From the NCBI RefSeq assembly GCF_021155765.1, contig NC_060114.1:18520501-18584500 (forward strand): DNA of 64,000 nt, in the 5' to 3' direction. Positions within the stretch are counted from its first letter, which is position 1. Each line of letters begins with the position of its first letter. Shown here piece after piece: positions 15,298 to 61,745 of this stretch. Under the pieces are notes generated by a model. That model was not told the DNA's origin. It made no database searches and was given only the letters and a program-made list of their open reading frames with translations. A program made the position numbers and the translations under genes. Source of the DNA: Diprion similis (lineage: Eukaryota; Arthropoda; Insecta; Hymenoptera; Diprionidae).

Positions 15298-15700
15298 TTG
15301 ATGCGCTATATCGACGCAATTTTGCGAGAGGAATTGATAGCGTACAGTCTCGACACGCTGGGAGCAGCGTGTAAGAGTTACAGCCGAAAAACGTATGGTA
15401 ACCTTTCTTAGTCACCTGCTGTTCTTCAAGTCTTTTTCGCCGTCTGAAGGTTCACTCAGTTTTAAAAGGATCATGCGAAATCATTCCAAAACGACAAACT
15501 TATGAAGGTATAAATCATCCGAAAAGTCAAGCAACTCAAGCAACGGTTCAGGAGTGATGGACGGAATCCGCAAAAATTTCTATGTTAATTTTTTTCAGTA
15601 GGTTCTATACTGTTCCTGATCGTAACACATTGAAATTGATTTATCAATACTCTTAATCGACGTCATTCTTGAAAGAAAACGAATACGAAACAAAAATCTG
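15298..15700. repeat. Degenerate satellite monomers at array edge
   Basis: The monomer starting at 14,984 is already diverged after about 15,175. The next one (15,298 to about 15,510) is only partly recognisable (gctatatcgacgcaattttgcgagaggaatt, then gtgtaagagttac in place of gtatcaaaagttac). A still weaker match, an aatcgacgtcattcttgaaag block, lies at about 15,650. Beyond that I see no satellite similarity. The last two units appear to be old array members no longer homogenised. Confidence 0.75.
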
Positions 15701-35705: not shown

Positions 35706-36499
35706 ATATTTTCATAGGCTAAGAAAGTTTTATTCTAGCTCAATAGGCTATAAAAATATAAGACTTTGAATGAAAGATGTTAATATTAAAGACCGTTACC
35801 TACATATATATTTCTCTTGGCGTTGAGTCAGAAGCAATTGCCAATCATGTAATAATTCGATTCACAAACCTTCTGATGTCCATGCGTGTGAACTCTGATG
35901 TTCAGCTCGTCACCATCTGTGAATTCGGTTGTTTTGGGTCGTGCCAACTATCAATACGCGCGATTGAAATAATTGTCTTTACACAAGAGTATAGTTACAA
36001 TGGACATCTATTAAGAAGTAACAAGTTCTTCCGATAAATTCGTAGCTTTAGGTTGTATAAAGTCTTATTCAAGTTTGTTTGACTAAGGTTGCAGTAGCAA
36101 TAAATACTTGGAATTGGTTTCGATCGTGTTTTGAGTTTAATGTAGTTCTGTACTGTCTGTTGTCTGAAATGATTTTGCTGCTTTCTGTCTTTTGTCTTTC
36201 GAGATTTATGAAAAGAGGGAAGTAGAAGGAAATTGAGAAGCTTTTCATTGGTGAGTCAAGTTTTCGGGTAAGTCAGCTGAAGACGATTGGTCTATGAGGA
36301 CTGTTATGATAGGTATCGTGAATAACGTGACAGACAGGTGTTTTTGGTTGTGTATGCCAGACGGAAGTGGCGCACAGGCTTTTATAACGTAACCCGGAAG
36401 TGTGTGGGGATTGTTTATATTGTAATTTATTTATATTATATTAATTATGTTTTAATCAATCTACGCATTTTTTGTTTTAACTTTATTATACATTTTTTT

Positions 36500-40579: not shown

Positions 40580-43500
40580 TCACACGCGACAAAAGAACCG
40601 CTTGAACCGCATCCGGAACGGCGTTCTCTCGGTCGTTTCGTCTGCAATCAGTTTGAAATGAATACGAGCTAGAAAACACTTGACTAGCCAATGAAGTTGT
40701 ATTGAGTGAGGGGAGGTCGTATTGACATTGTAAGAAGACGGTTGGAACAGATTCAGACGGTCTGAGGCAATGCTCTTCGTGGATTGTTTGACGAACCTTC
40801 TTCAATCAATCCACTGTCTCACTACGCTCGAAGCTATGTGATTTTATTGCGATACACATTGAAGAAGTGCTTGATTGATTTGCGAGGTACGCAAAAAACG
40901 TTGCCGGTTTAGCTTGACTTTATCAAACAATATAATCGCTCACCTTGACTGGCGTCCGTCGGTTCGCTTGGATCCGGGGGGATCGGATCCTGATTCTCGG
41001 GGTCCCGAATATTCCGGAATTCCGTGATGCGAGCATACGCCCTTTCGCGTCGAGTATACAATTGGATGTAATGCTGAAACATTCACGCGTGTAAGAATCA
41101 GACAGGTTTCCAATAACTTTCGAGTAGCAGGAAACAGAGTGTCACACGTAACCCAGTGGATTGTCGAGGGCTAATATACTTGTGCGACGGGACTTTGGAG
41201 AGTATTTGCAGGTATGACAGAATCACGTGATGCGATGTGTAGTTAAAGGATGTTAAACGTGTTCACCACAAGTTTTCAACTCACCATTTTGACGTTCTCC
41301 TCCATCAATTCACCGACGCTGTGCTCAAGCTCCACAAACGTGGGTCGTTTCGACGGATTCGCTTCCCAGCATTGCAGCATCGTCCGATAGCTGTGACAAG
41401 CGTCGGGTTAAATGGTTGAAAAAGTGAAATGAGGAATGATTGGTCGAACAAAAGCAGAGATACTCACATAGTCTCGGGTGAGTACTTTGGTCGTTCCATT
41501 CGATAACCACCGACAAGTGTTTCGCACATGTCTTGGGGGTTAATTTCGGGGTAAGGAGTTTTTGCGAGCGAAAACAATTCCCATAACAAGACTCCGAAAG
41601 ACCAGACGTCAGATTTTACCGAAAATATTCCGTCTCTGAGGGATTCGATGGCCATCCACTTGACGGGAAGAGGGTCGTTTCCCTCGTCCTTGTACTGTTC
41701 GTCCTCCTGGAGGGACTTGGACAGGCCAAAGTCACATATTTTCACGACGTTATCTTCCAAAAGCAGAACGTTCCTCGCTGCCAAGTCACCGTGCAGCACC
41801 TGAAGACGGTCAACGGTTCAGATTGTTTTCGGTGAAACTGAAAGGCAATAATCATGACGTGCAATAATCCCAGTCGTAAATTCCGGACGTCAACCTTTTT
41901 GCCAGCCAGATATTGCATTCCGCGTGAAATCTGCCAAGCCCAAGACACCAAGTCTCGCGTGCGAACCGGATCCAATTCCGCATTCGTAAAATCACCCGGG
42001 TACTTGGTTGGTAGTTCAAGTTCCGGTAATTGTGGGTTGTTTCCGGTGGCCGAATCTCCCGCCCCTTCGCTTCTACCCAGATGATTGGCGGCATCACCTA
42101 AATCTTCCACTGCTAAAATCGCGTCCTCCCAACGTGGTGCCGAGTTTTTACTACTCGGAGTTGAGACACTAGACAAGAGGAAGTGTTTGCAGTTAGGATA
42201 CTATCTATTTGAGCTACGGCTGCAACGCATGTATACGTAAAAGTGATTGTTGAGAGTTCGCCATTAGGACCTGGTGTAACTCATTGTTGTAACGAATTGC
42301 CTGTGACAAGAGAATGTAAGACCAGGACGTTCCAGAATACCACTGCGATGATGACTCACGTCGTCGATGTTTTGATAAACTCTGACCAATGGCTATGCAG
42401 TTCCACAATTTCAAGGTGATTCTTGGGTTCCCTCGAGACTCAGCTACTTACGTGACAAAATAGCTCACCTACGGCTTCTGACGTCGATCGGATCATCATC
42501 AGAATTTGGATTGGGGATTTTCGCAGCGACAGTACACAATTCATCGACGAACTTTGACCTGCAGCGCCACAAGTAGTCGTGCAAGTTCCCGAAGCGACAA
42601 AATTCCACGATGACCAAGAGTTGGCCTGTCGACGACGATGGTATTAACGGAGTTCACAAATGATCACTGACGCGTCTGGGTTCGCATGAGGAATTGAGAT
42701 ACGTAGAAACACCCACCATAATCAAGATTCTTAGTGCAGGCGCCGAGGAGGCTGACGATGTTCGGATGGTGACCGAGATAGCCGAGAATCTTGAGTTCTC
42801 GAAGAAGAGCTTTCATGCAGTGCAGGCTGGCTGTCGGTCGGACCGTCTTGACCGCAACCACCGAGATCGCTTCGGGTCGACGAATCGTTTTCGCCCTGGC
42901 TTTCCAGACTATTCCGAACGAGCCTCTTCCCAGTTCCTCGTCTACACAGTGAAAAGAATAAATGTTAATCCATGCAATGAACACACAGGCCTAAAATGCG
43001 ATCCGCGTTTCAGAAAAGTGAGAGAGAGTTGAAAACTCATTATACAATACTTGAAACGGAGTAAAAGACATGATAAAACATTTTCTTTATAAGTCTCGAA
43101 TATAAAGGGTTTTTCCAATGGATGAATAAAACCAAAATAATTTGTTTAATTGTTGTTTTTTAAAACGTATGTAACGACCTGGCGGTCGGCTATTCCCGAT
43201 TGGTAAGGAATAACAAGGGTTCGGGTTCACGTTTGCACCTTTAGGACAACCGGAGGTTAGGAGGAAGGTCGAATAACTCGGTTTATTCAGGATATAATTT
43301 AGAAATTTTGAGCCGTGTTTGCAATAACACAGGAAACTGGCTAGTATTGAGTGAGGGTAGCGACGAAGACTATTTCTACTCGATTTTTTTCAGATATTTC
43401 CGATTATTGCCGATACATCCGTAGTAAATACGCATCCAGTGTCACAAAAATTATTATATTTGGGTATCATCTTCAATTAGTGAAATAATATTAGTTCGAT

Positions 43501-46500
43501 TATTCACCGAACTTTCCCGAAAAAAAAATCGGTTTTTTTAATTTCTCTCACGCAATGTTTCATCAAATCGTGAGAATCCCAGACAATGGAGGAGTATAAA
43601 AGATATTGATTGTTGAAGTTCGGTGACGGCACGTTTTAAAACAACATGGATTGAAAATTCATTGGAGTTGCATTTATTTTCGGGCAATTGGCTTCTTATT
43701 TGAAAATCGTGAGGAAAATATGTTTCGGTAGCTTTGGCTCTCAATAAATCGGTTACGAACCACCATTTGGTAATTTTTATAATCACGAATGAAAAAAAAG
43801 GAGAAAACGAAACAAGTTATTTTTTTTTGAAAGACTCGAAAACCGTACGAAATTCAGAGCTCAAATTTAGGGCAAAGTGTTTTCATTTGATACCAAAATG
43901 ATCCCCAAAATCTCGATAGAGAACTGCACAGGGGTAGATTCGCCATGCTCATCCGACCACGATATATTCTTAGTCGTTACGGATTCGAACTGCTCCATCA
44001 TAGAGATAATAATATCCATAAATACCGAGTCTCAAAAGCTTTCGTGGAAATTCCCATTCCTTGTCGTAGGGCAATAAATCTGCCTGATCATTCATGGAAA
44101 GTTCCGGATTGAAAGAAGTCGGATCCTCGGTGTAGAAATATGCGAGTCGTTCTCTTAAAATCCTTCGCTTCTGAGCCTAAAACACAAGAGCATCAACAGT
44201 TTATCGTTCGTTCCATTCGCAGAAAGATCCTTATCTCTCAGATACCTTCTTGTAGAAACGCCAGGCTCCCAGAATGGCGAGGAGGAAGGAAATTCCCGTA
44301 AGGGGTAGCCATATTTCAACTGGTGTCCCGGATTCCACTTCTACAGAATGAATTCGTCAAAGTTTGCTCATGTCATATTTTTTTATCATTTTAAACACGT
44401 ACCTATGCTTTCGGTGAAAACTCCTCTCCGCACGTCACTCGAATAACAATCCGTATTCAAGTCGTTGAAGCAGGCTCGTACTTCCAAGTCGTGGCTGGTT
44501 GATGGATGAAGTTGTTCAAAGTTGTGATAAGTTGCCGAAGTATAATTAAAATCAACAATTTCTGTTCCGTTGTACGTATAGTTGACTGTTACACGGTACA
44601 GCTTTATGTGCGGGCGTAGATCTTCTGGTGGGCTTGGCCATTCTATAATTATGGAATTTGTCGTCTTCGATAACACAGTGATGTTTGGAAAATATGTAAC
44701 GTCTGTGAAAGAAACAAATCTTCATGAACGGATCATACATCGAAGGATGCTCCCATGATGAATTCCATTGTGTCATACTAGACGAAATGATGGACATTCT
44801 TTCATTTTGTTTAGATTCTGCGACCCATTTCGGAATCTCCGAATCAGTCAGGATGAACTTCATTTCGAAATACATCGCTTACGCGTAGTCCAAGCACTTA
44901 CCTATTTCCGCGGGCGTAACAAGTCCAGAGTAAGTGCTTGCGAGTCTCCTTCCCGCGTTGATCACAACAAGTTCGAACCAATAGAAAGTGCCGCGTGTCA
45001 ACTGCCTTACAACGTAGCCGCTATATTCCTTGCCCTCTTCAACTTGCACCGAGAATATATTTTCCCGTTCAACAGAATCGTTTTTCGCAAATCGTATCAG
45101 ATGCGTGTCTCCTTGAAATTCCTTGTCGATCCAGCGTAATATAACGAGTTTCGACCCGATGACATTGGCGCCGAGGTACAGTCGTGTTTCTTCGTTGACT
45201 TCGAGTCGAGCCACACCTGCTATACTCGGATGTCCGTAAATCATTGCCTGGCATTCGTAATCCCGAGAACGGCGTGAGTCCAAGGTATTCGCAATATACA
45301 ACATCGTCCTGACGTGAGTCCTGTTAAGATTCGATGTAACAGGGACGCCGACTAATTTACTTTTCCAGCGTAAGGAGGCGACTCGCCACTCAAAGTTCGA
45401 TCGTCCGTATCCGAAGAAATCGCACAACAGTGCTGTCGGCTCGTCCGGTTTCGCATACACGATTTCAGCTCCTACGATCAATTCTTTTACGGGCGCTAGA
45501 AAAAAAAATACCGAATAGACAGAGCGTTTCGAAATGTAATTCGGTATGTCGAGTAGTCTACATTATTTACACCAATCCAAAAGTTGTTTTGACTCAGAGT
45601 GGATCTTACGTATCACCGTGACAAGCATTTTTCCACCAGCGTGCGAATCCTTGATCATCTTCGCCACGCAGGTGTAATCGCGAGTGTTTCCATCCTCAGT
45701 ATCTCCGACAATTATAGTCCAGTCGATCCCACCGTCAGAATTACTGAAAGAAGTAACGCGTTTCCCCTTCGTCATCCACCAACCCTTGTATCCGTGAACA
45801 CTGACGCTGCAAGTGAAGGAAGCTTCGTTGCCTGCTGTTGTATTTTCCGCATCTCGAGTTACGTTCACTCTCAGTTCCGAAGATTTCATGTCAGTTTGCG
45901 ATTCTTGTCTCGCACGTAACTGTTTTCCGCCAGCTACGAAGTCGTATGGATCAGGATCATTGTCGAATTCTATATCAACATGACGTTGTAGGATATTTAA
46001 TCTTTGAATTGTATTCTGGCTGTAATTATTTGATAACGAAATCATTTTCATGAATTTTAAAAGCAGTTTTGAGTCTTGTTTAAAGTTCGGTATGTTGCGT
46101 TACTAATGCCAGAAAGGCGAATCTCAAAATAGACGCTCTATTGGCTCTGCAAATACAAAAGTGCATATCAAAATTTTTATCTCCCCAATCAACATAAAAA
46201 TCTGTAAAACATACAAATCTGTGGAAAAGAATTTTTTTTGGGACTCTTCCATCGATTTCTGCAATCAAGACAGTTTTAAGTTGATTGGAGAAATTTTTTT
46301 TTTTTTTTTTTTGATATGTCTTTTTGGCATTAGCAACTCGATTTGTTCAGTCAATGGAGGCGAAAATCATAAAAAATTCATAAAGTGGATGCTCATGAGT
46401 CAATCTTCGTACAAACTTTTGGAAAATATCCCGAACAATAAAAGAAGCAAAGTTTAACCCAAAAGTCTTAGCGCCGAGTCCTCAATTTTGCGACGTCAGT

Positions 46501-49500
46501 TTTCAATGGTGTGTGACATTATCGATGCCTAACGCCCTTGAATATTAGCTTAATTTTGCATTATATATTCGATTCCATACATTGATATTATTTTTACACA
46601 CTTATGACCTTCGTAATTTAATTTCAAGTCATTCTTACGCTTCGCTTCAAATTTCCGTATTCAATAAAAAATCTTTTCTTCATTGTTATAGAAATTCTAT
46701 CTATGGTAACCAATAAGCTAGAAATAATTGAAGCTTCGCGGTGAAACAACCGGAAAATCGCTTGTGCGACGATTGCAAACCTCACTTCCGTTACGCGGAG
46801 TCTGAAAAGTTAACTCGATCATTACCTGTGTCGTCGGTCGTCACGCCTTTCACAACGTCACTCGCACGTCGGTCGGGGCAGAAATCGTCGAAACAAGCTC
46901 GAACCACCAGATCGTAGCTGATCGAAGGCGAAAGGCGGACGATTGCTTCATTACCTTCATTAGCCTTCAACTTCTGCCAACGAAAATGTTTTTCCTCGTC
47001 CTTGCCGCTTTCCACTGATATAAAATAGGCGTCGATGCTTTGCCGGAGCTCCGGCGGTGGCTGCGACCATCCGATCGTCACGGTGTCCGTAGTTTTATTC
47101 ACGATCCTCACAGTTGGAACATATTCCACGTCTATGTAGAGATGATAGTTTTTAGAACATTTTAAACGATGAGTTTCATTGCTTTCATATTCTACAAGCT
47201 TGACTTCCGGTAAACAAATGTTAGCGGATACCACCTGACCATTCTGTACGTTCTTCGGAAGCTGCATGAAACTAGGACGCAATTGTGAAATGATACCATG
47301 AAAAGTGACTCGTTTTCGAACGGCGTAGCCCACTTCGAAGGAACTAAGGTTCCTTGGACGCTGTGAACCTGACGTTCGTACGCCCTAACCTCGTTCTCGA
47401 TTTGGTACGGATCGCGATGTTTCAATTCCCTCGTTATACGTAGTGTGCTGAGGCCGCTTCGATAGATAAATTGACAATTCGGCCTGCTTGATGTCATCGA
47501 TTCGTGCCAATTTCCGTCCATTTGATCGTAAGTTTGGCATATCTGTTACCGTAATTGCCAGGTTCGCCAAACATATTCCTAGAGCTCCAAATAATATAGA
47601 CGCGATCTGTTCCGGTTGCTCCGAACTTGAGAGAGACGAAATTAAATCCTCTGGTTCGAAGTCCGCTCGCTGCTACACGGAGAAAAAATTTGGAATGAAT
47701 CGCGTCGATACGCTCTGATAAGATTGTATGGGGCTTTCCACGCCGAATCGACCTGGGTTTTACCCATGTCCTCTCAGATTTGGTGTGCGATTTAATTTAT
47801 GATCGTTCTCACGTTGAAAGGCACCAAGTTTATTTCCGACTCAATTTGAATTTTCTGCAAATTTTCGAAACGATCCGATCGACCGACTAGAATTGAGTAA
47901 TTGAAAAACTTGTGAAGAATCCTATGTTGAATATGAAAATTTTCAAGCTAAGACCCGAAGTGGGCCTATTTTCCTTTCTTACTGTTCTCAAGCTACTTCC
48001 GAAAAAAGTGCTGAAAAAATTGGAAGCGGAAGTCATCTATCTATGGATGGTTGCTGAAACATTTTTATATGTCGTATCGGATTGGTAAAAATTTTTTTAG
48101 ATTTTTTCGAACCTTTTTCCAATTGCAATTTTTTGATCAGTAAAACGAGGAGGAAAAAAAATTTCTTGCGATAACCCTGAACTAATTTACAAAAATCCAA
48201 TGTGACATAAAAATATGTTCCAGCAACCATCCGTAGTAAAATGACCTCCGCTTCCAATTTTTCCGAAGTTTTATTTTCCGGAAAAAGCTTGAGAACGGTA
48301 GGAAGAGGAAATCGGCCCACTTCGGGTCCAAGCTTGAAAACCTTGATAGCTGTCGTAGGATTTTTCAAAGTCATTACTCATTCCAAAGCATTTGACGTGG
48401 AACACTTCAAATTTTCTCTCCGTGTACTACAAACTGATCGGAGTTACTTCTCGCCAGACATCTTTGGACAACAGAGTCGTCAGGAGTGACACTTTGATAT
48501 TCTAGTTTCATTCTAACGTGAGTTTTGCTCTTCCTTCGAACTTTGACGGCAGTTTCGTTACGAAATCCATCTATTATTGGCTAAGTGAATCCTCTTGTTT
48601 CTTTTCTAGCACGTTACAACGCGAAACTAACCGATACGATTTTGGCTGTCCCGATAACCTGTAGCAGATTTGCATAATTGACGCACAGAATGGACAGAAA
48701 ACTTGACCTCGTATGACCCGACCTACTCCTAGCGGAGAGAACCTCGCAATAATTTGTGTGGGAATTGTGTTTAAGTGAAGACGTCTGTAATTTTGATACG
48801 TTCTAGATCTTGGCTTTCTGAAAAAAGTCTGCACGGGCACGACCGTCTACTATGAATAGTTTCGGCTCTATATAGAGACCATCATGCCTCAAAATGTTCG
48901 TCATTGAAGTGGCCATGTCCGTTGACATGCCTGACTTTTATTCATTTGAAATGATAATTGCCTTCGTAGTTTCTCTTGAACAAGGAAGTACCAAATACAG
49001 GGCAAACATTGCGTTGAATTGTTGCAAAGTTTTTTAAACGTAAGGTTGAACGATATGTGGGTGGAAGTGATTGGGTAGATTTTTACCAGACGTCGTCAGC
49101 CATCTTGAGAAAACCTGTCGCAATGGTGAAGCAAACCCCCTCTCCATAAATATAACGGCCTTGATTTCGTAGACGGTGCTCGGTTCCAACTCATCTATGC
49201 GAAAGGATCCTGCGTGAATAAACCGCTCTGGAGAGGAAAGTCGGGGTGTCCGTAGCCATCCATCCGTGCCATTTTGCCTATACTCAATTTGGAATGAGAA
49301 GGCATCCCTTGGGGTGAATTCCATTTTTGATATGCCGTACAATTCCCATTTTATATAAATGGATTCTGGTTCAAGCACTCCGACAGTCCAAATCTGATCA
49401 GTTTGGTATTCTACGAGATAGAGGTAATCATCAACGATGTAATCGGAATTCTTTTCTGCCGTACATCTGTAACGTCCATAGTCTTCGGGTCTGACGCTTG

Positions 49501-50891
49501 TAAAGTAAAGCTCCATCGTGCCGTGAGTTTCGTTAATCCATCTCGGATGGGCTGTAGAAATTTCCTCATCCTCCAACACTGATGCTCCCTTCTTCCTTTT
49601 CCGCCATGTAAATTTTGTTAGGTTTTTACTCGCAATGCTGCATGAGATGATTGCTGGTTTGTCCGGTGTTGCGAGAACTTGATACCCGTCTACATGCAAG
49701 TCATCGTACCCTGTAAGAGAAGACCCTGTAAGAGAAGAAAAACTTTGAACAGACTCGGTTGAGGTGAATACTTTTAATCGGCTAGCAAACCTTGATTCTT
49801 CTCGAGTAAGCTGTCGAAAATCGCGGAACTTTGAATTATTGATGTGAGTACTCGATATCGTTTCCGTTTCTCTTGGTGCCGTCTCAAAAGCATATATCTG
49901 TTATACAGGGTGGGTCGAAACGGAAATAATGATAGTTCTTAGCGTGAATGAACTTTGAACTCGTCCACCAATTTCCGAGACCTTCGTATGCTCGAAATTG
50001 GGAGAAAAAGGGTTTCGTTTCGGATTTGAGAATGTGATAAATCTTCATTCCTCGCCTAGATACGCGGTTTCGAACGATTGGTTGGGAGGATGAAAAATTT
50101 AATTATCGAAGAACGTTCAAGTCGATCGAATCATCGAACGTCATCACCTGCAAGTGGATTTCCATCGCAATTTATGAAGGGCCTTTTCCGAACGACCGTA
50201 TCCCTCCCAACAAACGCTTGACCTCACTTGATTGTGAGGTATCAATAATTCAGGGTGGTTCTCAGGAGGGTCAGTTTTCGATTTCGACGGCACGCCCCCG
50301 AAATCAACTTTAAATAATGAAAAAATGTTCCCTAATTTCCACAGACTTTTATTTCAACTCTGATCTCTGCCTCAAGGATCGTGGATTTCCCCATATAAAA
50401 TACACGTGTTTCGGGCACGTTCTTAGTATATATTTTATTGTAAGAGTAACAACGTTGAAGGAAATCCGTAACTGCAGGATTTTAGTGAGCATTGGTTTTA
50501 CGGACTGAGGAAAAATTATACGCGTTGCTGCGCGTTCATATTTCACCCACGTTTCAAATCGGTCCGAGTTTATTTCTTTTATTTTTGATCAAAACTGTGG
50601 ATTGCAACTCTGCAGTAGAAGAACCTCGAAAACTGAGTATCAAGTGACGCGTTCGATACGCCACACGAAAGATGGACCGATGAAATTGGACCGAACTACG
50701 ATACTTAATGAATGCTTAGGAATCGGTTCCGACAGCATCCCGCAAAGTCAATATTTGTCAAAACGTCGAAGCCCTTGTGCTAATGAATTTCTCTCATTTG
50801 GAAGCAGATTAATTGAAGCTTTTGTTTACTCACATTCTTGGCCACCCCCAACTACGATACAAGAAGCAAATAAGAAAAGTATCAGCCACAT
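40580..50891 (-). CDS. RTK-A: Ig/FN3 receptor with Pvr-class split tyrosine kinase
   Basis: Exons (5' to 3'): 50834-50891, 49087-49710, 46826-47131, 45610-45933, 44902-45495, 44403-44702, 44246-44340, 44026-44176, 42717-42941, 42469-42625, 41895-42168, 41468-41799, 41285-41390, 40944-41073, 40580-40641; 3738 nt, 1245 aa. Order: signal peptide, Ig+FN3, FN3, Ig, Ig+FN3, FN3, TM (about 742-764), juxtamembrane ending WEFPRKLLRLG, kinase (about 820-1180), short tail. Kinase marks: GRGSFG loop, VAVKT lysine, ELKIL glutamate, VIVEFCRFGNL hinge, an insert of about 90 residues, HGDLAARN catalytic loop (glycine replaces arginine of HRD), DFG, one activation-loop Tyr (EQYKDEG), MAIESL, DVWSFG. The split kinase is PDGFR/VEGFR/insect Pvr class, but the ectodomain is not the seven-Ig Pvr type: it matches Ptp69D. 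A decayed exon lies in the 47,132-49,086 intron. The donor at 41,894 (GTTGAC) is weak but shared with RTK-B. The N-terminal half could instead be a separate gene. Confidence 0.8.
42942..44025 (-). other. RTK-A intron before the N-lobe exon
   Basis: About 1.1 kb between the juxtamembrane exon (44,026) and the G-loop exon (42,941); the RTK-B counterpart is only 329 bp. The extra sequence is AT-rich with a less AT-rich patch at about 43,170-43,290 (aacgacctggcggtcggc). That patch may be a repeat fragment, but I cannot classify it. Confidence 0.45.
45934..46825 (-). other. RTK-A intron joining the two ectodomain halves
   Basis: Intron of 892 bp between the FN3 exon (46,826-47,131, donor gtaatg) and the Ig exon (45,610-45,933, acceptor cttcgtag). 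It contains a poly-T run near 46,297-46,313. The acceptor has little polypyrimidine tract, unlike ttttacag at the same place in RTK-B. I find no signal-peptide exon in it, which supports one long gene rather than two. Confidence 0.45.
47311..47660 (-). pseudogene. Decayed Ig-FN3 exon inside an RTK-A intron
   Basis: This stretch matches the FN3 half of the RTK-B exon 60035-60649. It starts FGATGTDRVYIIW where RTK-B has VGAIGTDRIYISW. A TGA replaces the tryptophan of TNQW, and a single-base shift moves the rest into another frame (DPYQIE aligns with TLYQIK, ending KWATPFENE against KRVTTFEKG). The donor is lost and the Ig half is missing, replaced by a foldback element. Because flanking exons are all phase 1, skipping it leaves the RTK-A frame intact. 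Confidence 0.75.
47890..48390. mobile_element. Foldback element in an RTK-A intron
   Basis: Left arm blocks: tttcaagctaagacccgaag, ttggaagcggaagtcat, ggatggttgctgaaacat. The right arm repeats them inverted: atgttccagcaaccatcc, atgacctccgcttccaa, cttcgggtccaagcttgaaaa. The arms are at least 130 bp with scattered mismatches, and the loop is around 48,090-48,190. The element lies where the Ig half of the decayed exon would be. No coding capacity. Confidence 0.75.
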
Positions 50892-52638
50892 CTTCAGGGT
50901 CTATTTGATTCTTAGGATTTTTTGCTCCGATTCGATCTGACGACGACAATCACGTTACAGCAGACACTTGTTGGATCCTCGAAATCGTTGTTGTTTGAAA
51001 ATCACTTCACTCTCAACTCGTGCAGCGGCTTCTTTTCGGAAATGGAGGTCGTTTCACAAATTCTCGATGCCGTTCTGCCTCAGCCGGAGGTCAACCTTAC
51101 TCTAATTTTATTTCTGTTGTTACTGAACGGTACATAACCGCCGAATATGATGAAATGTAAGCCGTTTTCTTGAGGTTCGTTATCAGTAATTATTCCACGG
51201 GTCCTGTGGGGCTTTAAGCAGAAACAAGTTCCTTTGTTTAGATTCGCATTTTTCTTACAATGACTTTATCACGTCGTCATCACCGGAGCTTCTAATGCGT
51301 GACGCTGCAAACGAACAAAGATAATTTCTGAAGAAAATGACGAAAAATTTTCCGTCAAGCTGTACCCAATGTTGTTTACATTGACATACCGCGACTACAT
51401 CATCCAGCGTATTGTCACTGCATAGGGCATTCGGGGTTTCATTGATCTGGATATATTTTCAGGTTGAAATAAATTTTTAAAATGTTAAGAATTCAGCTGA
51501 AGCGGATCATCAAATAATAATTGAACGCCCGCTCGTTTCAAGTTCTCGTCAATCCTGTTTTAATCTGGAATTAGGTTGTTGTGGTTCGAGCCAACTATCA
51601 AGTATTCCCAAACACTTGTCCTTACTAATCACTTTAATTGAAATACACTCTTCACTCAACACTTACAGTTTCTCTCAATTGATTCTCAAGATTCGGGTTT
51701 ACAATAGTTTCACTCACAAATATAATACACTGGAATTGCGTTAACTATAACAAAGTTTGAAGATTCTAGATATGAGCCTTTCATACTTCCGCACTGCTCT
51801 TACCTTTGATGTGTCCTGAATTGTCCGAAGTCTGAAATGGTTCCAATTTGAATTCAGTTCTGTTTCGTCTCATGTATGAAATGATTTTGTCCTTTCTGCT
51901 CCGAGTCAGGCTTTGAATGAGTAATGAAAATCAGACAGGATTTAAAGAATCGTTATGGGTCAACAGGCTCTTAAATATGTCAGTGCGAAGTGATTGGTCG
52001 AGAAGCACCAAGCGATAAACTGCGGACGGAAATCCTTTGTTTTCAGAATGTGGTTTTCTTGATTGCGAGCTGCGTATCCTTTGTTCTTCTACGTTCAATT
52101 TGTACAGTTATGTCCATTGTTTCTTTTCTGTTTGCGATCCATCGTGGATATTCGTCGCTCCGAGTCTTGCCAATTCTGAACAAGCGTGATTATCGGCTTT
52201 TTGGCTGGATCGTAATAATTTGACGCGGCTAAAATCAAACAGACGCTGTAAAAGTAACTGCACTTGTTTCTCGTCCAACTCATCTCAAATCGACGAGTAA
52301 GCGACTCGAGTTATAACATCACAGAATGATAATCACTGCGTTTTGTTGAATGAGTTGCGATACTTGCGGCGAGCCTCAGTTGAGTTTTGTTCATCTGTAT
52401 CTAACCATTTTCACGGGTAAGCAATCTAGGCATTTTAGTTATCATTCTAGTTTCGAAAAGAGCGAAAATATATTCAGGTAATCTCAGGAATCTATGGAAA
52501 TGATAAAAGCAATTAATAAGGCAACCCTGCAGTGAAAATTCTCCTAAACTCGTCAACAACACTTTGTACTGTTAAATAACCTGCGTGACGTCTCCCTTTT
52601 TTCCTTGGCAATCAGATTCTTCACTTTTCGTGACTCAC
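50892..52638. other. RTK-A 5' flank
   Basis: The first 250 bp resemble the RTK-B 5' flank (gccgttctgcctcagccgga versus gtcgttctgcctcagctgaa at 61,863), so this is probably the promoter and 5' UTR of RTK-A, duplicated with the gene. The part at about 51,830-52,010 resembles 36,100-36,300 upstream of the RTK pseudogene. No coding exon is recognisable. Confidence 0.5.
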
Positions 52639-52696
52639 CTGCATAGTATTCGGACTTGGCACGAACGAAGATGCAACCAGCCAGCATTAGTATCAT
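52639..52696 (-). CDS. Orphan signal-peptide exon (58 nt)
   Basis: An ATG at 52,696 opens a hydrophobic leader (MILMLAGCIFVRA) followed by KSEYYA, then a good donor GTGAGT after one base of the next codon. Length (58 nt) and phase 1 equal those of the RTK-A signal exon 50834-50891. The RTK-A exon pairs by flank similarity with the RTK-B exon at 61,7 kb, so this one is extra. It could be an alternative first exon of RTK-A or the remnant of another family member. No Ig exon lies between it and 50,891. Confidence 0.4.
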
Positions 52697-53249
52697 CTTA
52701 ATCGTCGTTCTAAGTTTTAAAATCGATATTTCTCTGACGATTCGGTGAGGCAGCAACGATTGCGATCATGTACTTGACGGATTTTGTACATCTCTGTTTT
52801 TGAACAATCAGCCCATTGTCAGGTTGTGCTGGCTGCTTTTCCTAGGAAATGATTGTCGTTTCCGGAACCACGAACGCCGTTGCGCGTTTGCCGGACGTGA
52901 CGCTTTTCCTGATTTCATTTCCGCCAGTGGCTAACAATATGCAACCGCAGGGATTGCTTGTACGGTATTTTCAGGAAAATGTTCCCCGTTAGCGAGGTTA
53001 GATGTTACACATTATTGAAGACTGCTGATAGACTCGCAAGTTTTTCTTTCATTACGTATCAATTAATTTTATATCCATGATAATTTCAAGCATATTTTGT
53101 ACATTTTTTTGATAGTCCCTACGTTTTCTCATATCTATATTGTATATTGACAAGGCTTGTAACTTCACGCATTACGTAGTTTTTATTTTTTCGCAAAGTT
53201 GGAAAATATTTGGTACTTCAAATTACCCGAATATCCGCATTATAAGTAT

Positions 53250-53358
53250 AGATCTAAGGTGTTGTGAAGGACTCAATCCTTCTCAGAGACAGCTAAATTG
53301 TTGGATTATGAAATTCGAATACGTGCTGGTATACAAACCGTGTGCCGACGCACAATGA
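53250..53358 (+). mobile_element. Small retrotransposon pol fragment (RNase H end)
   Basis: The plus frame contains NPSQRQLNCWIMKFEY followed by VLVYKP and CAD. This fits the RNase H C-terminal pattern of Ty3/gypsy-type pol (arginine-rich stretch, tryptophan, then E-Y and Y-K/R-P-G). It is only about 100 bp long and ends in a stop. It lies between RTK-B and RTK-A and is on the strand opposite the genes. It may be chance, but the motif is fairly specific. Confidence 0.4.
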
Positions 53359-53389
53359 AGATTGAATTATGAGAAGAGAAGGATGTTTG

Positions 53390-53710
53390 AATTGATATCT
53401 AGTCTACATTCACGTACGTCATGAGTTTGTAGGTGGAAAAAAGTCATCCACTTCACTTCAATTTCTATCATATTCGCAATCACGTCCACTAGATTAGTTC
53501 ATCAAAATATCATTGGATTATTTATGAAAACTATTTGAAGTATGTTACTATCGTTATTCTTCAGTTAGTGGAGGAAAATGTGACATTCTGAACAAGTTCA
53601 TTCCCTTCCTTGTTTTCCAAACATTTCCGTATAATCAGTCTTGGGGTTGCTTATTCTTGTTTCTTCTCCTACAGCGTGCCTGTAATATCATGTCCCTGAC
53701 TCATTTCACG
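53390..53710. repeat. Duplicated RTK 3' flank, copy 2
   Basis: Resembles 39,187-39,545 at the other end of RTK-A (see that entry). Here it directly abuts the last coding exon of RTK-B, so it is probably the RTK-B 3' UTR and flank. Confidence 0.6.
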
Positions 53711-53724
53711 TCATTTTCGTTCAT

Positions 53725-56700
53725 TTACCGCCGGCAAAAGAACTGCTTGAACCGCATCCAGAATGGGGTTCTCTCAGTCGTTTTATCTGCAATTAGTTTG
53801 GAATAAATACGTGCAAGAAAAGACTTGACGAGCTAATGAAATTGTATACAGTGAGGAATTTCGAATTGGCATCGTAAGAAGATGGTTAGAATGGATTCGC
53901 ACAGTCTCAAACAACGCTCTTCCGTAAATTCCTTGAGAAAATGTCTTCATCGTAGAATCAATCCACTTCTTACTGCACTCCAGTAATCGCTTACCTTGAT
54001 TGACGTTTGTCGGTTCGATTGGATCCGGGAGGGTTGGATCCTGATTCTCGGAGTCCTGTGTATTCCGGAATTCCGTAATGCGAGCATACGCCCTTTCGCG
54101 TCGAGTATACAATTGGATGTAATGCTGAAACATTCACGCGTGTAAGAATCGGAAAGTTTCTCAGATTCGGCTGATCTCTGCTGTTTCCCACAACTTTCCA
54201 GCAGCAGAAAATGGAGTGGCAATGAGGGCTGATATACTTGTGCAACGGGACTTTAGAGACTATTTACAGGTATTCAAGAATCACGTGATGCGGTGTGTAG
54301 TTGAAGGATATTGAACGTGTTGACCACAAGTTTTCAACTCACCATTTTGACGTTCTCCTCCATCAAATTACCGACGCTGCGCTCAAGTTCCACAAACGTG
54401 GGTCGTTTCGACGGATCCGCTTCCCAGCATTGCAGCATCGTCCGATAGCTGTGACAAGAGTCGGGTTAAATGGTTGAAAAAGTGAAATGAGGAATGATTG
54501 GTCGAACAGAAGCAGAGATACTCACATAGTCTCGGGTGAGTACTTCGGTCGTTCCATTCGATAACCACCGACAAGTGTTTCGCACATGTCTTGGGGGTTA
54601 ATTTCGGGGTAAGGAGTTTTGGCGAGCGAGAACAATTCCCACAAAACGACTCCGAAAGACCAGACATCTGATTTCACCGAGAATATCCCGTCTCTGAGCG
54701 ATTCGATGGCCATCCACTTTACAGGAAGAGGATCGTTTCCCTCATCCTTGTAATCATCGTCCTCCTGGAGGGACTTGGACAGACCAAAGTCACATATTTT
54801 GACGATGTTGTCTTCGGAAAGCAGTACGTTCCTCGCTGCCAAGTCACCGTGCAGCACCTGAAGACCGTCAACGATTCAAATTGTTTTCGGTGAAACTGAA
54901 AGGCAATAATTATAACGTGCAATAATCCCAGTCGTAAATTCCTGACGTCAACCTTTTTCCCAGCAAGATATTGCATTCCGCGTGAAATCTGCCAAGCCCA
55001 AGACACCAAGTCTCGCGTGCGAACCGGATCCAATTCCGCATTCGTGAAATCACCCGGGTACTTCGATGGCGGCTTGACTTCAACTGGTTCTAAGTTACTG
55101 CCGGTGGCCAAATCTTCCATCCTCATATTGGTACCCGGATGATCGACACTGTCACATGGATCTTCTACAAATGAAGTGGCATCACCATAACGTAGTGCCG
55201 AGTTTGTTCTAGTCAAGAATAAGACGACATATCAGAAAAAATATGTTTTGGTAGGGCACAAGTACGATATTCGACAGTTACATGCATATAATTATATGTT
55301 GTACGAGTTAGTGTTCAGGAGCAAATGTAACCAATTTCTGCTACGAAATGCAGTTGTTGAGAGAATGCATTACTAGAAAGTTTTTGAGGACCAGAATGCG
55401 ACATATCGATGACATTTTGATTCAACTGGTTGCAATCAAGTACTACATCTCCATGGTGATTTTCAGGTTCGCTCATGACTTAGCCACTTCCGCATCCAAG
55501 ACGCTCACCTCTCTGTTTCAACGTTGATCGGATCAGCGTCAGGATTGGAATCAGGGATTTCCTTGGAGTCGGTACCCAATTCGTCGACGAACTTTGACCT
55601 GCAGCGCCACAAGTAGTCATGCAAGTTCCCGAAGCGGCAAAATTCCACGATGACCAAGAGTCGGCCTGTCGGTGACGATGGCATAATTCAAGTTTACGAA
55701 TGATCTTTGACGCATCAAGGTTCGGATAAGGAATTGAGATACGTATAAACATTTACCATAATCAAGATTCTTAGTGCAGGCTCCAAGGAGGCTCACGATA
55801 TTGGGATGGTGACCGAGGTAGATGAGAATTTTAAGTTCGCGAAGAAGAGCTTTCATGCAGCGGAGACTGGCTGTTGGTCGGACCGTTTTGACTGCAACGA
55901 CCGAGATCGCCTCGGGTCGACGGATTGTTTTCGCCCTGGCTTTCCACACTATTCCGAATGAGCCACTTCCCAGTTCCTCGTCTACAAAGTGGAAAACAAA
56001 AATGAGAGACCACGCAAGGAGAACAATATGGCTGAGTTCATGTACCCAAAGAATCGTCTATGTTCATTGTTAGTGTGAAAAATCAACTGACCATCACTGT
56101 CAAAGGAAGGCCCCACGAGCTGATCCACGTTTCGAAAAAGTGAAAAACAGTTTAATACTTACCTGACAATGCATATCTATTTGACATTGTTAAAACCACG
56201 ACTGGACTCTGGAGATAAATACAGACTCGAGTCGTAAGAAAAATTTACACAGTATATCCGGTCACAAATCAGACTTTCTCTATGGTGGTGATGATGACGA
56301 GAATGCATACCAAGTCTTAACAGCTTCCGTGGAAATTCCCATTTTTTATTGTAAGGCAATAAATCGGCCTGATCACTGATGGCCAGTTCTGGATTGAAAA
56401 AAATCGGTTCCTCGCTATAGAAATAAGCGAGTCTTTCTCTAACAATCCTCCGCTTCTTTGCCTGACAATGAAACACGAAATATTATGCGGTCGTAATTTT
56501 TTTAGGTTATAAAAAGATCTTAATCATTTTATTCCATACTTTTCTGTAAATCTGCCAGACTCCGAGAACGATGAGAAGGAGCAAAACTGATCCCGTTGAA
56601 GCTACCCATGTTTCGACTAGTGTCCCGGATGTCTCCTTTGGAGTAATTTTTTCCCCATCTAAAGTATTATTCAATCAATGTTTAGCTCATTAGTTGTACA

Positions 56701-59700
56701 GTCTTTCAGTTGTCACGATAAACAGTTCAGATCCTCTTATGCTAAATAATATGAGAGTCTTCGACCGAACGAACAAAAATGCAAACTCTGTTTCACGGAC
56801 GTGATACGTTGTTTTCGTGTCCTCAAATGCATGTTCTTCATACCTATGCTGTTGGTGAAAACTCCTTTCCGAACGTCACTCGAATAACAATCCGTACTAA
56901 CGTCGCTGAAGCAAGCTTTTACTTCCAGGTTATGGCTAGTTGAAGGCTGAAGTTTGCCCAAAACAAAATGAGTTTGCGTAGTATTTCGTGAATAACCAGT
57001 TTCATTTCCAGAGTACGTATAGCTGATCGATATACGATACACCTTTATGTGATCGCCTAGCTCTTCTGGCGGCGTCGGCCATTCGATGGCTATCGAATTT
57101 GTTGACTTCGAGGTCACGGTGATGTTCGGGAAGTAAACAATGTCTGAGGAATAAATACATACCCATTAACCGTCGAGGTACACGTCACAGGACACTGTTT
57201 ACAGAATTCATTGGATCCGACTAGACCAAATATAACGGACATTGTCTTATATTGTGGACTTTGGAACAATTTGGAACAACTTCGTTCCAACGTGCACCGC
57301 TTTTGCGTTTTCCGACTACGTACCTTCATCCGTAGGCGTGATCCAGCTGGAATAAGTGCTTGCGAGTCTTTTACCCGCGCTGATGACAACCAGTTGGAAC
57401 CAATAGGAAGCGTTGCGTGTCAACTGCCTCACAACGTAGCCACTATAGAATTTGTTTCCTGTAACTGGAACCGAAAACGTATCTTGCCAGTCATGAGAAC
57501 CGTTTTTCAAAGACTGTACCAGATGCGTATCTCCTCGGTACTCGATGTCGAACCATCGCAAATAAACGAGCTTCGACCCAATGGTGTAGGCGTTCAATTG
57601 CAACGGTGATTCGTTGGCGACGTCGAGACGAATGGATCCGCGGATGTAATCCAGTCTGTGATTTGTTGCCTCGCACTCGTACTTCCCAGTTTCTAACATC
57701 ACGTTGTGAGTTGGATTCGATAGCATCACTCTGATGTGTGTGTCGTTGAGCCTCAATACACTGAAGATTTCGTCGAATTTCTGTCTGTCATAATCCCAGA
57801 ACTTTCGCCACTTGAAGTTCCACAGCCGATATCCAAAGAAGTCACATGACAGAGCAGTTGGATAGTGAGGCCTCGCGTACACCATTTCAGCATTTACGAT
57901 TATATTTTCTGCTGGCACTGGAAAGAAGACAAAAATGAAAACAACCAATAGACTCAGTTTTTTCAACTGACAATGAAATTCATGACGTCGAGTAGTGGAC
58001 GTTATTCGTATTTATTTGCAAGCTACTTTGTCTCAGAGAGGATAATTCCTACTCTCTGCATAGCGCATCTTACGTATCAGTGTGACAATCATTGTTCCAA
58101 TCGTTCGCAAATCATCCGACATCCTCGCTTCACAGGTGTAAACGCATCTGCCTCCTTCTCTAGCGTCTTCCACATTTATAGTCCAACTGATCTCACTGTT
58201 GTAATAATTGAGAGACTTGACGTGGTTCTCTTTCTTTGTCCACCAACCCTCGTATCCTTGAACACTTATGCTGCAAGTGAACGAGGCATTGCTGCTTGTA
58301 GTAATATCTTTTTCATCTCGAGTCACGTTGATTTCCAGTACTGGAAACTCCATACCAGATTCCGAATGTTGCTCTGCACGCAAGTGTTGTCTTCCATCTG
58401 TAAAATCGTGTCGTTCAAGTTCATTCTCGAAGTCGACATTGACGTGGTGCTACGCTCGGCCAGCAAGAAAAACCCAATCACTCATTGCTCACCCGGGGCA
58501 CCATTGTTTGCAACTTATCTAAAGTTCGGTTCTAAAGCTAATCCGGATGAGAGGAGTGAGTGAGAGGGTAAATGAATAAAGTCCACAATTTCGCGAGAGA
58601 TCAGAGAGCGCTTGCTTCGGTATAAAAACCCTCACGGTTTAGAGGGAAAAGGCGAAGCAAGTCCTGTACTTATTTAAAATATCAGTTCAACAGGTTACAT
58701 GGTAAAAATGTGTTTGGCGCGTTCACCTTTAGACAACTTAGTCTTAGTTGATTGTCCATTCAATAATCTTATATACTGTCAAATAAACACAACTTAAATG
58801 CATGTATTTCAATAAAATTTCTGGGAAATGCATGTACTTCAATGCCTCATTCTCAAGGGAGAAATGGGAAAGGGTGGACCTGTTATATAACTAACCTAAC
58901 AACGCGATCCTGAAATCTACGCGATATGGAAAGAATTTGACACCCGACCGAGTGCGGGAAAAACGCGATAATCGCCCGCGCGGCAGAAGAGAGGAATTTA
59001 GCAGTACGTCCTACCTACTCGAGCGCTCGATTCTAAGTGAAGTGCGCGCGCGCGTGAAACTCGGGCTGCGCGCGCGCCCGCTAGAGTCAGCTCTCGCTCA
59101 GCGCGCCGCCTTGCGGCCGAGTAATCTCAACATCGTGAGGCATCAGCGGTTCGAGCGCGAACATATCGCTAAATCCTAAGCTGGATATGATTATTTGTTG
59201 TCTTGATAAAAGTCTATCCGAAATTCCTTCGGTTTTAAGATAATCTAGTTTCCAGTTCGCCTCTATTATCTCATAAAAAATCACCCACCATCATAAATTT
59301 TCAGAGAATCTATACCAATCAGACTATGGTAGTCAAGAAGAAATCAACCGAATGCGAGAAGTCGAGTGAGTGACGATGGTTCACCTCACGTTCGTTTTGC
59401 AACTTATGAATAGTGAACTCAATCATTACCTCTATCACTGGTCATCACGTCTTTCATGACAGCACTTGCGTGCTTATCGGGACAGTAATCGTCGAAACAA
59501 GCTCGCACCTGCAAGTCATGACTGATTGAAGGCGAAAGGTAGACATCCGCTTCATCGTAATCTGCAGCCTTATATTTTTCCCAACGAAAATTTCTTTCCA
59601 TCTTGTTACCGTGTTCCACTGATATGAGATAGGCGTCAACGTATTCGAGAAGCTCTGGCGGTGGCTGCGACCATTGGATCGTTATTGTGTCCATAATTCT

Positions 59701-61745
59701 TCTCACGATACGCACACTTGGAACGTAATCCAGGTCTGTACAGAAATTTTGATTTTTGTGAAAGTTTTTTTTATTGATTTACACTGGGCTCATATTCCAC
59801 TAGTTTCATACCCAATGAATGTTATCTGACGGGCTCGACATGATTAATCGTAAAGTTTGTGACGTGTATTTCTGGTAGATCTGGAAAAACGTTTCACGTT
59901 TTGAACTGAACCGGGATTCGAACCCAGGAACTTTCGCTTTCTGGGTAACTGATCTGAACACTGAGTCTCTACAGCTTATGAAGGAGAGGACTATTCCTAA
60001 GGATATTCTAAGGTAAATTGTATAAAAAGTGTACCTTTCTCGAACGTCGTAACCCTCTTTGAAAGAACGAAGGATTTTACCACACCATGAAATTGTCGAT
60101 CGTATGAATCAAGTATTATCTTGATTTGATAGAGAGTGCGATTCGTCAATTCATTTATAACGTAGTTACTTGCAGCTGGATCAATGGATGAATTAAAAAT
60201 TTGCCCTGGTCCTTGCCATTGATTTGTACTATCTTCCTTGTATTTAATTGTAAGTTCAACATATTCATTATAGTAATTGAAAAGATCGCTGATGATATTT
60301 GTATAATTCCAACTGATGTAAATACGATCTGTTCCAATGGCCCCGACCTTGAAAGGGGCAAAATGAAATTCTCCGACTTGGAAAACAATCTGCGCTGACA
60401 CAAGATGACCGGAACTGTTCGCTTGGCATATATAATCTCCAGAGTCGTCGATTGTGACGCTTGCAAAGTCCAGTTCCATTGTGACGTGAGTATTATTGTT
60501 CCACCAAATGCTGGTTGATTTCTTTGAATTTCCCTTGTGCTGCCAGATAAAGTTTGTCATTTGATTCCCTGTCACGTCACACGAGAGAACTGCACGTTCG
60601 TGTGATTCAACAATAACAGTATTACGATCTGGAACTATCCGCTCGGAAACTAAAATGGAAATAAAAAAATGATCTATAAGCTTAAATGTAGCAACTATTT
60701 TTGCAGTCACACAAAATAAAATTCCACTTCCAAACGTTCTCAAAATGGAATTTCTTATCACACGTTGATATAAGTAAATGAGTAAACCTTTATCGGACGT
60801 CGTCACCCATCTTGAAAATGCGTAAGAATCTTTGTCGGAAATCAGATCCCTTGGGTCTGAAATAAGGCCCCTGAATTCGTAGACGGTGTTGGGTTTCAAT
60901 GCATTTATGATGTAGGAACCTGCAGAAACAATCCTAGTCGGTGTGGAAAGTAGGGGTGTCCGTAGGCGTTGATTCGTACCATTTTCTCTATACTCAATTC
61001 CAAACGAATCAACATGACTCGAGTAAAATAAGTCGAAGTCCCACTGTACGAGAACAGATTCTGGTTCATGAACTGTGCCAATCCAAGTAAAATCCTTCGG
61101 GTATCTTCGGAGGTGGACAGGAATCGAAGTACGGCTAGTCGATGTGATTACCACGCATCTGTAAGTTCCGTAGTCTTCGGTTGTGACGTTTGTGAAGTAA
61201 AGCTCCATAGTAATGTGAGTTTTGTTGTTCCGCCAAAACATGCTCTTTTTCGTAGAATCGTCTACATTCCTCTCGTTTCTATTATTCCCTTCTTTCGTCC
61301 ATGCAAAATTTGACGGATCCTTAGTTATAACTTTACATGAGACAACTGCGGGTTCATTTGGTGCTGCAAAGACTGTCCACGCATCTCGACTTAGCCGCAC
61401 TGAAACGGATAAAAGGACAATTGACTATGTAACAATGTGGAACTTCGAACTAACAATGTCGACACTTTACACCGAAGTTTTACATTTCTCGTTTCGATGA
61501 GTCAAAAGCAATTGAGTTCATTATTGATCGCCAATCTACAGTAGAAGAACCTCGGAAGGTGAGTATCAAGTTACTCATTCGATGTGACACGTGTACTGTA
61601 CTGCAATACTGGATGAATTTTTAAAAGCTAAATAATTTCTCGTATCGGGAGGCAGATTAATAACGACTGTTTTTTACTTACATCCATCTACAGATGCGTT
61701 GTGAGCCAGAATACAACAAGAGAATACCCAAAGGATTCCGCGCAT
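53725..61745 (-). CDS. RTK-B: long Ig/FN3 receptor with Pvr-class split tyrosine kinase
   Basis: Exons (5' to 3'): 61682-61745, 60788-61399, 60035-60649, 59430-59735, 58074-58397, 57324-57917, 56844-57143, 56540-56658, 56311-56461, 55757-55981, 55509-55665, 54953-55208, 54526-54857, 54343-54448, 53995-54124, 53725-53786; 4353 nt, 1450 aa. Order: signal peptide (1-21), Ig+FN3, Ig+FN3, FN3, Ig, Ig+FN3, FN3, TM (about 955-975), juxtamembrane, kinase (about 1030-1387), short basic tail ending KQFFCRR. Kinase marks: GSGSFG, VAVKT, ELKIL, HGDLAARN, DFG, activation-loop DDYKDEG, MAIESL, DVWSFG. Exon sizes from the Ig exon to the stop equal RTK-A except the TM exon (119 versus 95) and the insert exon (256 versus 274). 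Expected to autophosphorylate at the membrane on ligand binding; ligand unknown. It has one more Ig-FN3 unit than RTK-A. Donor GTTTAC at 60,787 is weak. Confidence 0.85.
58398..59429 (-). other. RTK-B intron with a CpG-rich island
   Basis: Intron of 1,032 bp between the two ectodomain halves. Around 58,940-59,120 it becomes GC-rich, with alternating cgcgcg runs (aagtgcgcgcgcgcgtgaaa). A plus-strand TATA-like tataaaaacc lies near 58,620. No signal-peptide exon is visible. The island could be an internal promoter or a solo LTR-like insert; the same intron of RTK-A lacks it. Confidence 0.45.
59885..59992 (-). repeat. tRNA-derived (SINE-like) fragment
   Basis: The minus strand contains a perfect Pol III B-box block (gggttcgaatcccgg on the complement of about 59,909-59,925), preceded by an A-box-like gactcagtg and a short arm that could be a decayed anticodon stem. 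The full cloverleaf does not form convincingly, so it is not called a tRNA gene. It occupies much of the 299-bp intron between two RTK-B exons. Confidence 0.45.

Follow-up and report, generated by a model that had tools for sequence, protein, structure and literature searches.

Receptor tyrosine kinases with a Ptp69D-type ectodomain in Diprion similis: a probable family built by domain shuffling

RESULTS

RTK-A and RTK-B join an Ig/FN3 ectodomain to a split kinase

The stretch of DNA analysed here (64,000 nucleotides of the Diprion similis contig NC_060114.1, C10:18520501-18584500; hereafter the window) carries two genes, RTK-A and RTK-B, modelled as receptor tyrosine kinases (RTKs) with an ectodomain resembling that of a neighboring Ptp69D-type receptor phosphatase. 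Both lie on the minus strand, as do all the genes and exons of the window described below. The models were built by hand on splice signals and checked by script: RTK-A (50891-40580) comprises 15 exons encoding 1245 codons and RTK-B (61745-53725) 16 exons encoding 1450 codons, both in an open frame. All introns are GT-AG and the phases agree at all junctions common to the two genes. In each, a signal-peptide exon is followed by phase 1-1 immunoglobulin (Ig) and fibronectin type III (FN3) exons, a transmembrane exon, a juxtamembrane exon with a WEFPR motif, five kinase exons (E9 to E13), and a two-exon tail. The ectodomain has two parts. The membrane-proximal one is the Ig, Ig+FN3, FN3 exon series that was noticed first; the upstream one reads Ig+FN3, Ig+FN3, FN3 in RTK-B, with the second unit decayed in RTK-A.

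In RTK-B, the signal-peptide exon (61682..61745) precedes two upstream Ig+FN3 exons (60035..61399: 61399-60788 and 60649-60035; also backed by Pfam and genome search) and an upstream FN3 exon (59430..59735). The membrane-proximal Ig exon of Ptp69D Ig1 type (58074..58397, GYEGWW) was supported by genome search, and the Ptp69D-type Ig+FN3 (57324..57917) and FN3 (56844..57143) exons by genome search and tree. Transmembrane (56658-56540) and juxtamembrane (56461-56311) exons occupy 56311..56658, the split kinase 54343..55981 (55981-55757, 55665-55509, 55208-54953, 54857-54526, 54448-54343; genome search and Pfam), and the tail 53725..54124 (54124-53995 and 53786-53725, with the stop).

The RTK-A signal-peptide exon (50834..50891) starts with MWLILFLFASCIVVGG and has an ATG, a hydrophobic core and a phase-1 donor. 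The upstream Ig+FN3 exon (49087..49710) is open, phase 1-1, recognized as Ig by Pfam and family-specific in the genome. The second Ig+FN3 exon (47298..48534) is decayed: its DNA matches RTK-B exon 2 on both sides of a foldback insertion resembling a miniature inverted-repeat transposable element (47913-48367, with inverted repeats), and its frame is broken; skipping it keeps the RTK-A reading frame. The upstream FN3 exon (46826..47131) is followed by the Ig exon of Ptp69D Ig1 type (45610..45933, GYKGWW; genome searches), the Ptp69D-type Ig+FN3 (44902..45495; genome searches and tree) and FN3 (44403..44702; genome search and tree) exons, the transmembrane exon (44246..44340) and the juxtamembrane exon with WEFPR (44026..44176). 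The five kinase exons (41285..42941: 42941-42717, 42625-42469, 42168-41895, 41799-41468, 41390-41285) were supported by PDB ranking and Pfam; 42168-41895 encodes an insert and the return to the kinase. The tail (40580..41073) is formed by exons 41073-40944 and 40641-40580 (stop).

In both proteins Pfam identified a tyrosine kinase, two stretches of fn3 and no PTP family; RTK-A has one Ig_3 stretch and RTK-B two. The other ectodomain modules were assigned by exon-to-exon homology, without a Pfam call. In RTK-A, 356 residues span 256 positions of the kinase profile, so the domain is split by an insert. With VAVK, HxD and DFG kept in both proteins, RTK-A and RTK-B have the catalytic residues of an active receptor kinase, and activity is predicted.

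A receptor gene with two tandem protein tyrosine phosphatase (PTP) domains occupies 20-28 kb of the window. By its architecture we take it to be Ptp69D; the solved structures closest to its first PTP domain are RPTP-alpha and LAR, a result that does not identify the gene. The Ig1 (26368..26676, GYTWWTKDGG), Ig2+FN3 (24969..25556) and second FN3 (24498..24794) exons were delimited by frames, phases, Pfam and genome search. A third FN3 found by Pfam is an open frame with approximate exon ends (23981..24313), and the PTP domains lie at 20258..22689 (domain 1, frame 22689-21643, HCSAGVGRTG; domain 2, frames 21154-20780 and 20728-20258, HCHCGSDRS). A second tandem-PTP gene, presumably Lar, is found on C4.

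The genome contains 17 chimeric kinase loci

We have searched the whole genome (269 Mb, 60 contigs) with RTK-B exon E12. The query hit 66 places, 20 of which align over 107 or more of the 110 residues, with 61-100% identity. Seventeen are chimeric kinase loci, distributed over four contigs (C10, C9, C1 and C5). Nine belong to type I (E12 90-100% alike): RTK-A, RTK-B, six others on C10 and one on C1. The eight type-II loci (E12 68-72%; five on C9, one each on C10, C1 and C5) have a simpler ectodomain. The remaining three are Pvr-like kinases (E12 61-63%) at C11:6634720, C11:6645988 and C7:8144028.

A Ptp69D-type Ig+FN3 exon was found upstream of E12, on the same strand and within 6 kb, at 16 of the 17 chimeric loci versus none of the three Pvr-like loci. 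The lone exception is C10:2114405; at C10:3456763 the exon contains a stop. When 10 frames upstream of each of two Pvr-like loci were submitted to Pfam, Ig families were recognized (E <= 0.01) in 6/10 and 5/10, and fn3 in 0/20 (E <= 0.1). We read the two C11 loci and the C7 locus as probable Pvr genes, with an apparently Ig-only ectodomain at the two inspected. Since one genome holds three such genes, the canonical receptor may also have multiplied.

We have modelled one type-II gene on C9 (L039) as far as E13. It encodes a signal peptide, Ig+FN3, FN3, FN3, a transmembrane helix and a split kinase; Pfam recognized two fn3 stretches, and the model contains neither an Ig1 exon nor a C-terminal tail, which was sought in it. 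Its juxtamembrane, E9, E10, E12 and E13 exons (151/225/157/332/106) have lengths identical to those of RTK-A and RTK-B, with matching phases. Hence, the ectodomain-kinase joint appears to be the same in two groups about 30% apart in E12. Also on C9, an ectodomain near-identical to that of a type-II receptor (6258650-6260200) has no kinase E12 match nearby.

The ectodomain exons are specifically related to Ptp69D

The membrane-proximal Ig, Ig+FN3 and FN3 exons of RTK-A and RTK-B match those of Ptp69D in order, phase and near-equal length, at about 30% identity. The splice models and genome searches thus bear out this part of the preliminary description of the locus. The Ptp69D Ig1 query (E <= 1) matched, besides itself, nine places, of which eight are loci of the family and the ninth is an unlinked, broken fragment (C14). 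The best match, the lone strong one, had an E value of 2.2e-6, the others 0.001-0.06; none fell at type-II loci. With the Ptp69D Ig2+FN3 query, ten family exons (one from a kinase-less C9 copy) ranked ahead of any other locus, the best of which had E 1.2e-5; with the FN3-2 query, ten (one in a damaged locus, one kinase-less) preceded an FN3 on C4 at 2.0e-5.

The reciprocal searches gave a similar picture. At E <= 1, the RTK-B Ig+FN3 query returned nothing beyond the family loci, the fragment on C14 and Ptp69D (45 bits), the sole gene outside the family that this exon matched. The RTK-A upstream Ig+FN3 query (E <= 0.01) returned family loci and Ptp69D only. Down to 1e-4, the RTK-B FN3 query matched family loci and Ptp69D; the weaker matches also took in an unassigned place within the C9 cluster (E 0.005) and, at E 0.4-0.5, two unrelated ones. 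With the RTK-B Ig query, Ptp69D and fragments on C13 and C14 were matched besides the family loci. Ig or Ig+FN3 fragments lie at C14:4741010-4741790 and C13:7941368-7941538, away from the family kinases; those on C14 contain stops.

Between Ptp69D and RTK-A sits a kinase-less relative, M (31001..33478; frames and trees), with a signal-peptide start at 33478, an Ig+FN3 exon (32122-31541) and an FN3 exon (31383-31001). The latter ends in a hydrophobic tail, a candidate glycosylphosphatidylinositol (GPI) anchor signal, and M is possibly a GPI-anchored or secreted decoy. In the Ig+FN3 exon tree (23 rows), Ptp69D, the receptors and M were separated from three other Ig-FN3 loci with support 96/98, and the receptors and M from Ptp69D with 85/90. 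The FN3 exon tree (31 rows) separated Ptp69D, the receptors and M from four outgroups (97/91), and the receptors with M formed a group (97/92). As outgroups we took the next-ranking matches of the genome, a choice on which the root depends; one FN3 outgroup lies ~11 kb upstream of the C4 tandem-PTP gene, on the same strand. M and the C10:10.45 receptor had long branches. Both trees omit C9:5.971 (a near-copy of C9:5.955), C10:2.114 and C10:3.457; the Ig+FN3 tree further lacks C5:3.71, and the FN3 tree lacks the C9 copy without a kinase and the FN3 of C10:2.068, which is broken.

Among PDB chains, the RTK-B ectodomain had its best match (E 0.0012) in an Ephrin receptor FN3, and a profile search yielded 458 mostly generic Ig/FN3 chains that gave no discrimination among the best 60 viewed. 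Beyond this genome, a single match came from the bacterial and archaeal contigs scanned (35% identity over residues 1-84, uncultured Desulfosoma record), and none from the viral ones. We rejected generic Ig/FN3 similarity as the sole source of the likeness, given the Ptp69D/family specificity of the genome searches and the PDB comparison.

The kinase is related to Pvr

The top solved relatives of the kinase were VEGFR2 and VEGFR1, then KIT and PDGFRA (best 60 of 2610 matches); above VEGFR2 ranks a lone EGFR chain, whose score sums two copies. Tie, Axl, Mer, Tyro3 and Torso were absent from these best 60. Torso, considered as a possible identity of the receptors, was likewise absent from the ectodomain matches, and a literature search yielded no paper; this is indirect evidence, since the PDB set may lack a Torso structure. 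The motif HGDLA[AT]RN occurs in all 17 chimeras and all three Pvr-like kinases, and HRDLA[AT]RN in the eight other kinases read. In a tree of 14 chosen rows (9 of the 17 chimeras, the three Pvr-like kinases and human VEGFR2 among them), the chimeras grouped together (79/99), and chimeras plus Pvr stood apart from VEGFR2 and another kinase (79/98). PDB ranking, Pfam, motif and trees agree with the split Pvr-class kinase described previously, and they place the RTK-A and RTK-B kinase domain in the Pvr/VEGFR/PDGFR class, the trees with moderate support. Separate phylogenies thus group the ectodomains with Ptp69D and, more weakly, the kinases with Pvr.

Ectodomains and kinases evolve at different rates

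We have compared nonsynonymous (dN) and synonymous (dS) divergence among the copies. For RTK-A against RTK-B, the ectodomain gave a dS of 0.74 and the kinase core one of 0.34; the introns were 94-97% identical flanking E12 and 48-77% before E11. The lower kinase dS and the high identity of the E12-flanking introns suggest that the kinase end of the pair was likely homogenized by sequence exchange (gene conversion).

Across six type-I copies, pooled dN/dS was 0.08 for E9 and 0.09 for E12, versus 0.57 for the Ig and 0.75 for the Ig+FN3 exon; the FN3 exon gave 0.49 (five copies). For RTK-A and the C1 copy, the Ig+FN3 exon reached 2.2 (dN <= dS in 0.004 of bootstraps). These values are suggestive, not proof, of diversifying selection on the ectodomains, and the contrast between constrained kinases and fast-changing ectodomains suggests diversified recognition.

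At the DNA level, the kinase halves 40933-42980 (RTK-A) and 53984-56020 (RTK-B), together with some of their introns, resemble each other far more closely than the ectodomains do.

Other features of the window

A broken third receptor (34994..36187; C10:18555494) consists of kinase scraps and a 5' flank that match RTK-A and RTK-B DNA; it contains stops and its ectodomain is absent. This relic is one of the damaged copies, with those at C1:16909737 and C8:5123239. Positions 1-15450 are satellite DNA of ~314-base tandem units, many with plus-strand open frames of ~96 codons.

DISCUSSION

The observation of a phosphatase-type ectodomain on a receptor kinase in RTK-A and RTK-B was confirmed in the predicted genes. 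We consider it very probable that both belong to a domain-shuffled RTK family, in which Ptp69D-type ectodomain exons are combined with Pvr-type transmembrane, juxtamembrane and kinase exons. The homology and the exon structure are directly visible; the joining event itself is inferred. N-terminal ectodomain exons of a Ptp69D-type phosphatase would have been joined through phase-1 introns to the Pvr-type exons, probably in one old fusion. The family would then have multiplied to 17 kinase loci, with a second ectodomain unit added in one group and several copies broken, in an order that is our reconstruction. The type I/type II divergence in E12 and the differing ectodomains argue that the fusion is older than the RTK-A/RTK-B pair.

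The preliminary description had proposed an ectodomain duplicated beside its source and joined to a kinase. The Ptp69D-type ectodomain on a Pvr-class kinase was upheld, but not a single local event giving RTK-A and RTK-B, which we rejected because there are 17 such kinases on four contigs. Four of the 10 family clusters lie on the Ptp69D contig, which makes up 8.4% of the genome (binomial 0.007). A fusion origin beside Ptp69D is possible; local spread would give the same clustering.

Several results weigh against this shuffled-family interpretation. In a kinase tree of 28 rows (all 17 chimeras, the three Pvr-like and eight other kinases), chimeras plus Pvr received 51/82 and the chimeras did not form one clade, although a single clade was not rejected (approximately unbiased test, p 0.114); overall, support in the kinase trees is moderate. 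The RTK-B Ig query reached Ptp69D only at E 0.011, the RTK-B FN3 exon (2.1e-5) ranked behind the C4 FN3 (2.0e-5) with the FN3-2 query, and several type-I exons came after some other FN3 loci with the Ig2+FN3 and FN3-2 queries. The Ig of the type-II gene L039 fell just under the Pfam cut-offs (ig 21.2 vs 21.8 bits). At least 5 of the 17 copies are damaged among the exons inspected, and a stop interrupts the FN3 exon of C10:2.068, one of the six copies used for dN/dS. dN exceeded dS clearly in one of seven bootstrapped pairs, chosen out of 15 possible after the ratios had been seen, and the RTK-A/RTK-B pair gave 0.53. Finally, the ectodomain-to-kinase transcripts of RTK-A and RTK-B are predicted from splice signals in genomic DNA.

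Could the ectodomain and kinase exons be separate adjacent genes? A 1084-base intron precedes the kinase in RTK-A and the models rest on genomic DNA, yet a transmembrane exon with matching phases links both parts in RTK-A, RTK-B and the type-II gene, and the layout recurs upstream of 16 of the 17 kinases, making this extremely unlikely. It is very unlikely, too, that the family consists of decaying remnants that no longer have a function: broken copies exist and RTK-A holds a decayed exon, but RTK-A and RTK-B are open end to end, the type-II gene is open through the kinase, and the kinase dN/dS is 0.08-0.09. Membership in a known Ig+FN3 class (Tie, TAM, Torso or other), with a merely generic likeness to Ptp69D, is an improbable though slightly better alternative. 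TAM and Tie receptors do have Ig and FN3 modules, shuffled ectodomains often consist of phase 1-1 modules, and some unrelated FN3 loci ranked with type-I FN3 exons in the Ptp69D FN3-2 search. The Ig+FN3 and FN3 exon trees speak against it, however, as do the 45 bits between an RTK-B exon and Ptp69D (versus E 0.0012 for the best PDB match of the ectodomain) and the lack of Tie, Axl, Mer, Tyro3 and Torso among the best 60 of 2610 kinase matches.

As for function, the Ig/FN3 rod of a shuffled receptor might bind a cell-surface or secreted partner and thereby cluster the receptor, and the split Pvr-type kinase would trans-phosphorylate and signal as Pvr would. The input would be altered, the PVF-binding Ig array being absent, and each copy may read a different or changing partner. 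Competition of the receptors and Ptp69D for one ligand, with kinase and phosphatase opposed, an idea that goes back to the preliminary description, is doubtful. The exons are homologous and RTK-A and RTK-B adjoin Ptp69D; moreover, part of one report (PMC7252352) gives Toll-2, -6, -7 and -8 as binding partners of fly PTP69D, so that Toll-type proteins would be the first candidates for common partners. Set against this are the ~30% identity and fast ectodomain change, the location of 15 of the 17 copies away from Ptp69D, and the type-II loci, where the modelled gene has no Ig1 exon and the Ptp69D Ig1 query drew a blank. Just as tentatively, the family might be a lineage-specific recognition repertoire, in which diversifying ectodomains of receptor-PTP (RPTP) type on a conserved Pvr-type kinase recognize variable partners, be they self, non-self or on neuronal surfaces. 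Some of these would be read by Ptp69D too, kinase and phosphatase then driving one signal in opposite directions.

If the shuffled-family interpretation is true, nature has here connected the sensing half of a receptor phosphatase to a kinase, in a genome that retains both kinds of parental gene. One could then test directly whether the ectodomains of RPTPs sense ligands, and how new families of RTKs originate and become diverse. The 17 loci, with kinases under constraint and ectodomains that change fast, also raise the question of what this animal's many receptor kinases must recognize. In line with the preliminary description, which knew of no receptor of this make-up, neither an RTK with a Ptp69D-type ectodomain nor such an expansion was found described in titles and abstract openings of the open-access literature (subscription journals and preprints lie outside this scope). 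Judged from the one genome covered, the family may be restricted to this lineage, or it may be an old one that annotations have left without a name.

RTK-A and RTK-B resemble Pvr and the VEGFR/PDGFR receptors in a kinase split by an insert of ~90 residues (counted by eye) and in the WEFPR juxtamembrane motif, and the HGD motif is common to the chimeras and the three Pvr-like genes of the same genome; unlike those receptors, RTK-A, RTK-B and the type-II gene have FN3 (two fn3 stretches each) besides Ig in the ectodomain. With Ptp69D, RTK-A and RTK-B share the Ig, Ig+FN3, FN3 exon series, its phases and near-lengths, but they end in a kinase where Ptp69D ends in tandem PTP domains. TAM and Tie receptors place their Ig and FN3 modules in another order, and the RTK-A/RTK-B kinase is closer to VEGFR, KIT and PDGFR, with TAM and Tie missing from its best 60 of 2610 solved relatives. 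The Venus kinase receptors, another RTK family, carry an insulin-receptor-like kinase. As given in part of a report on them (PMC2680970), they likewise set an unusual ectodomain on a known kinase type, theirs being a Venus flytrap.

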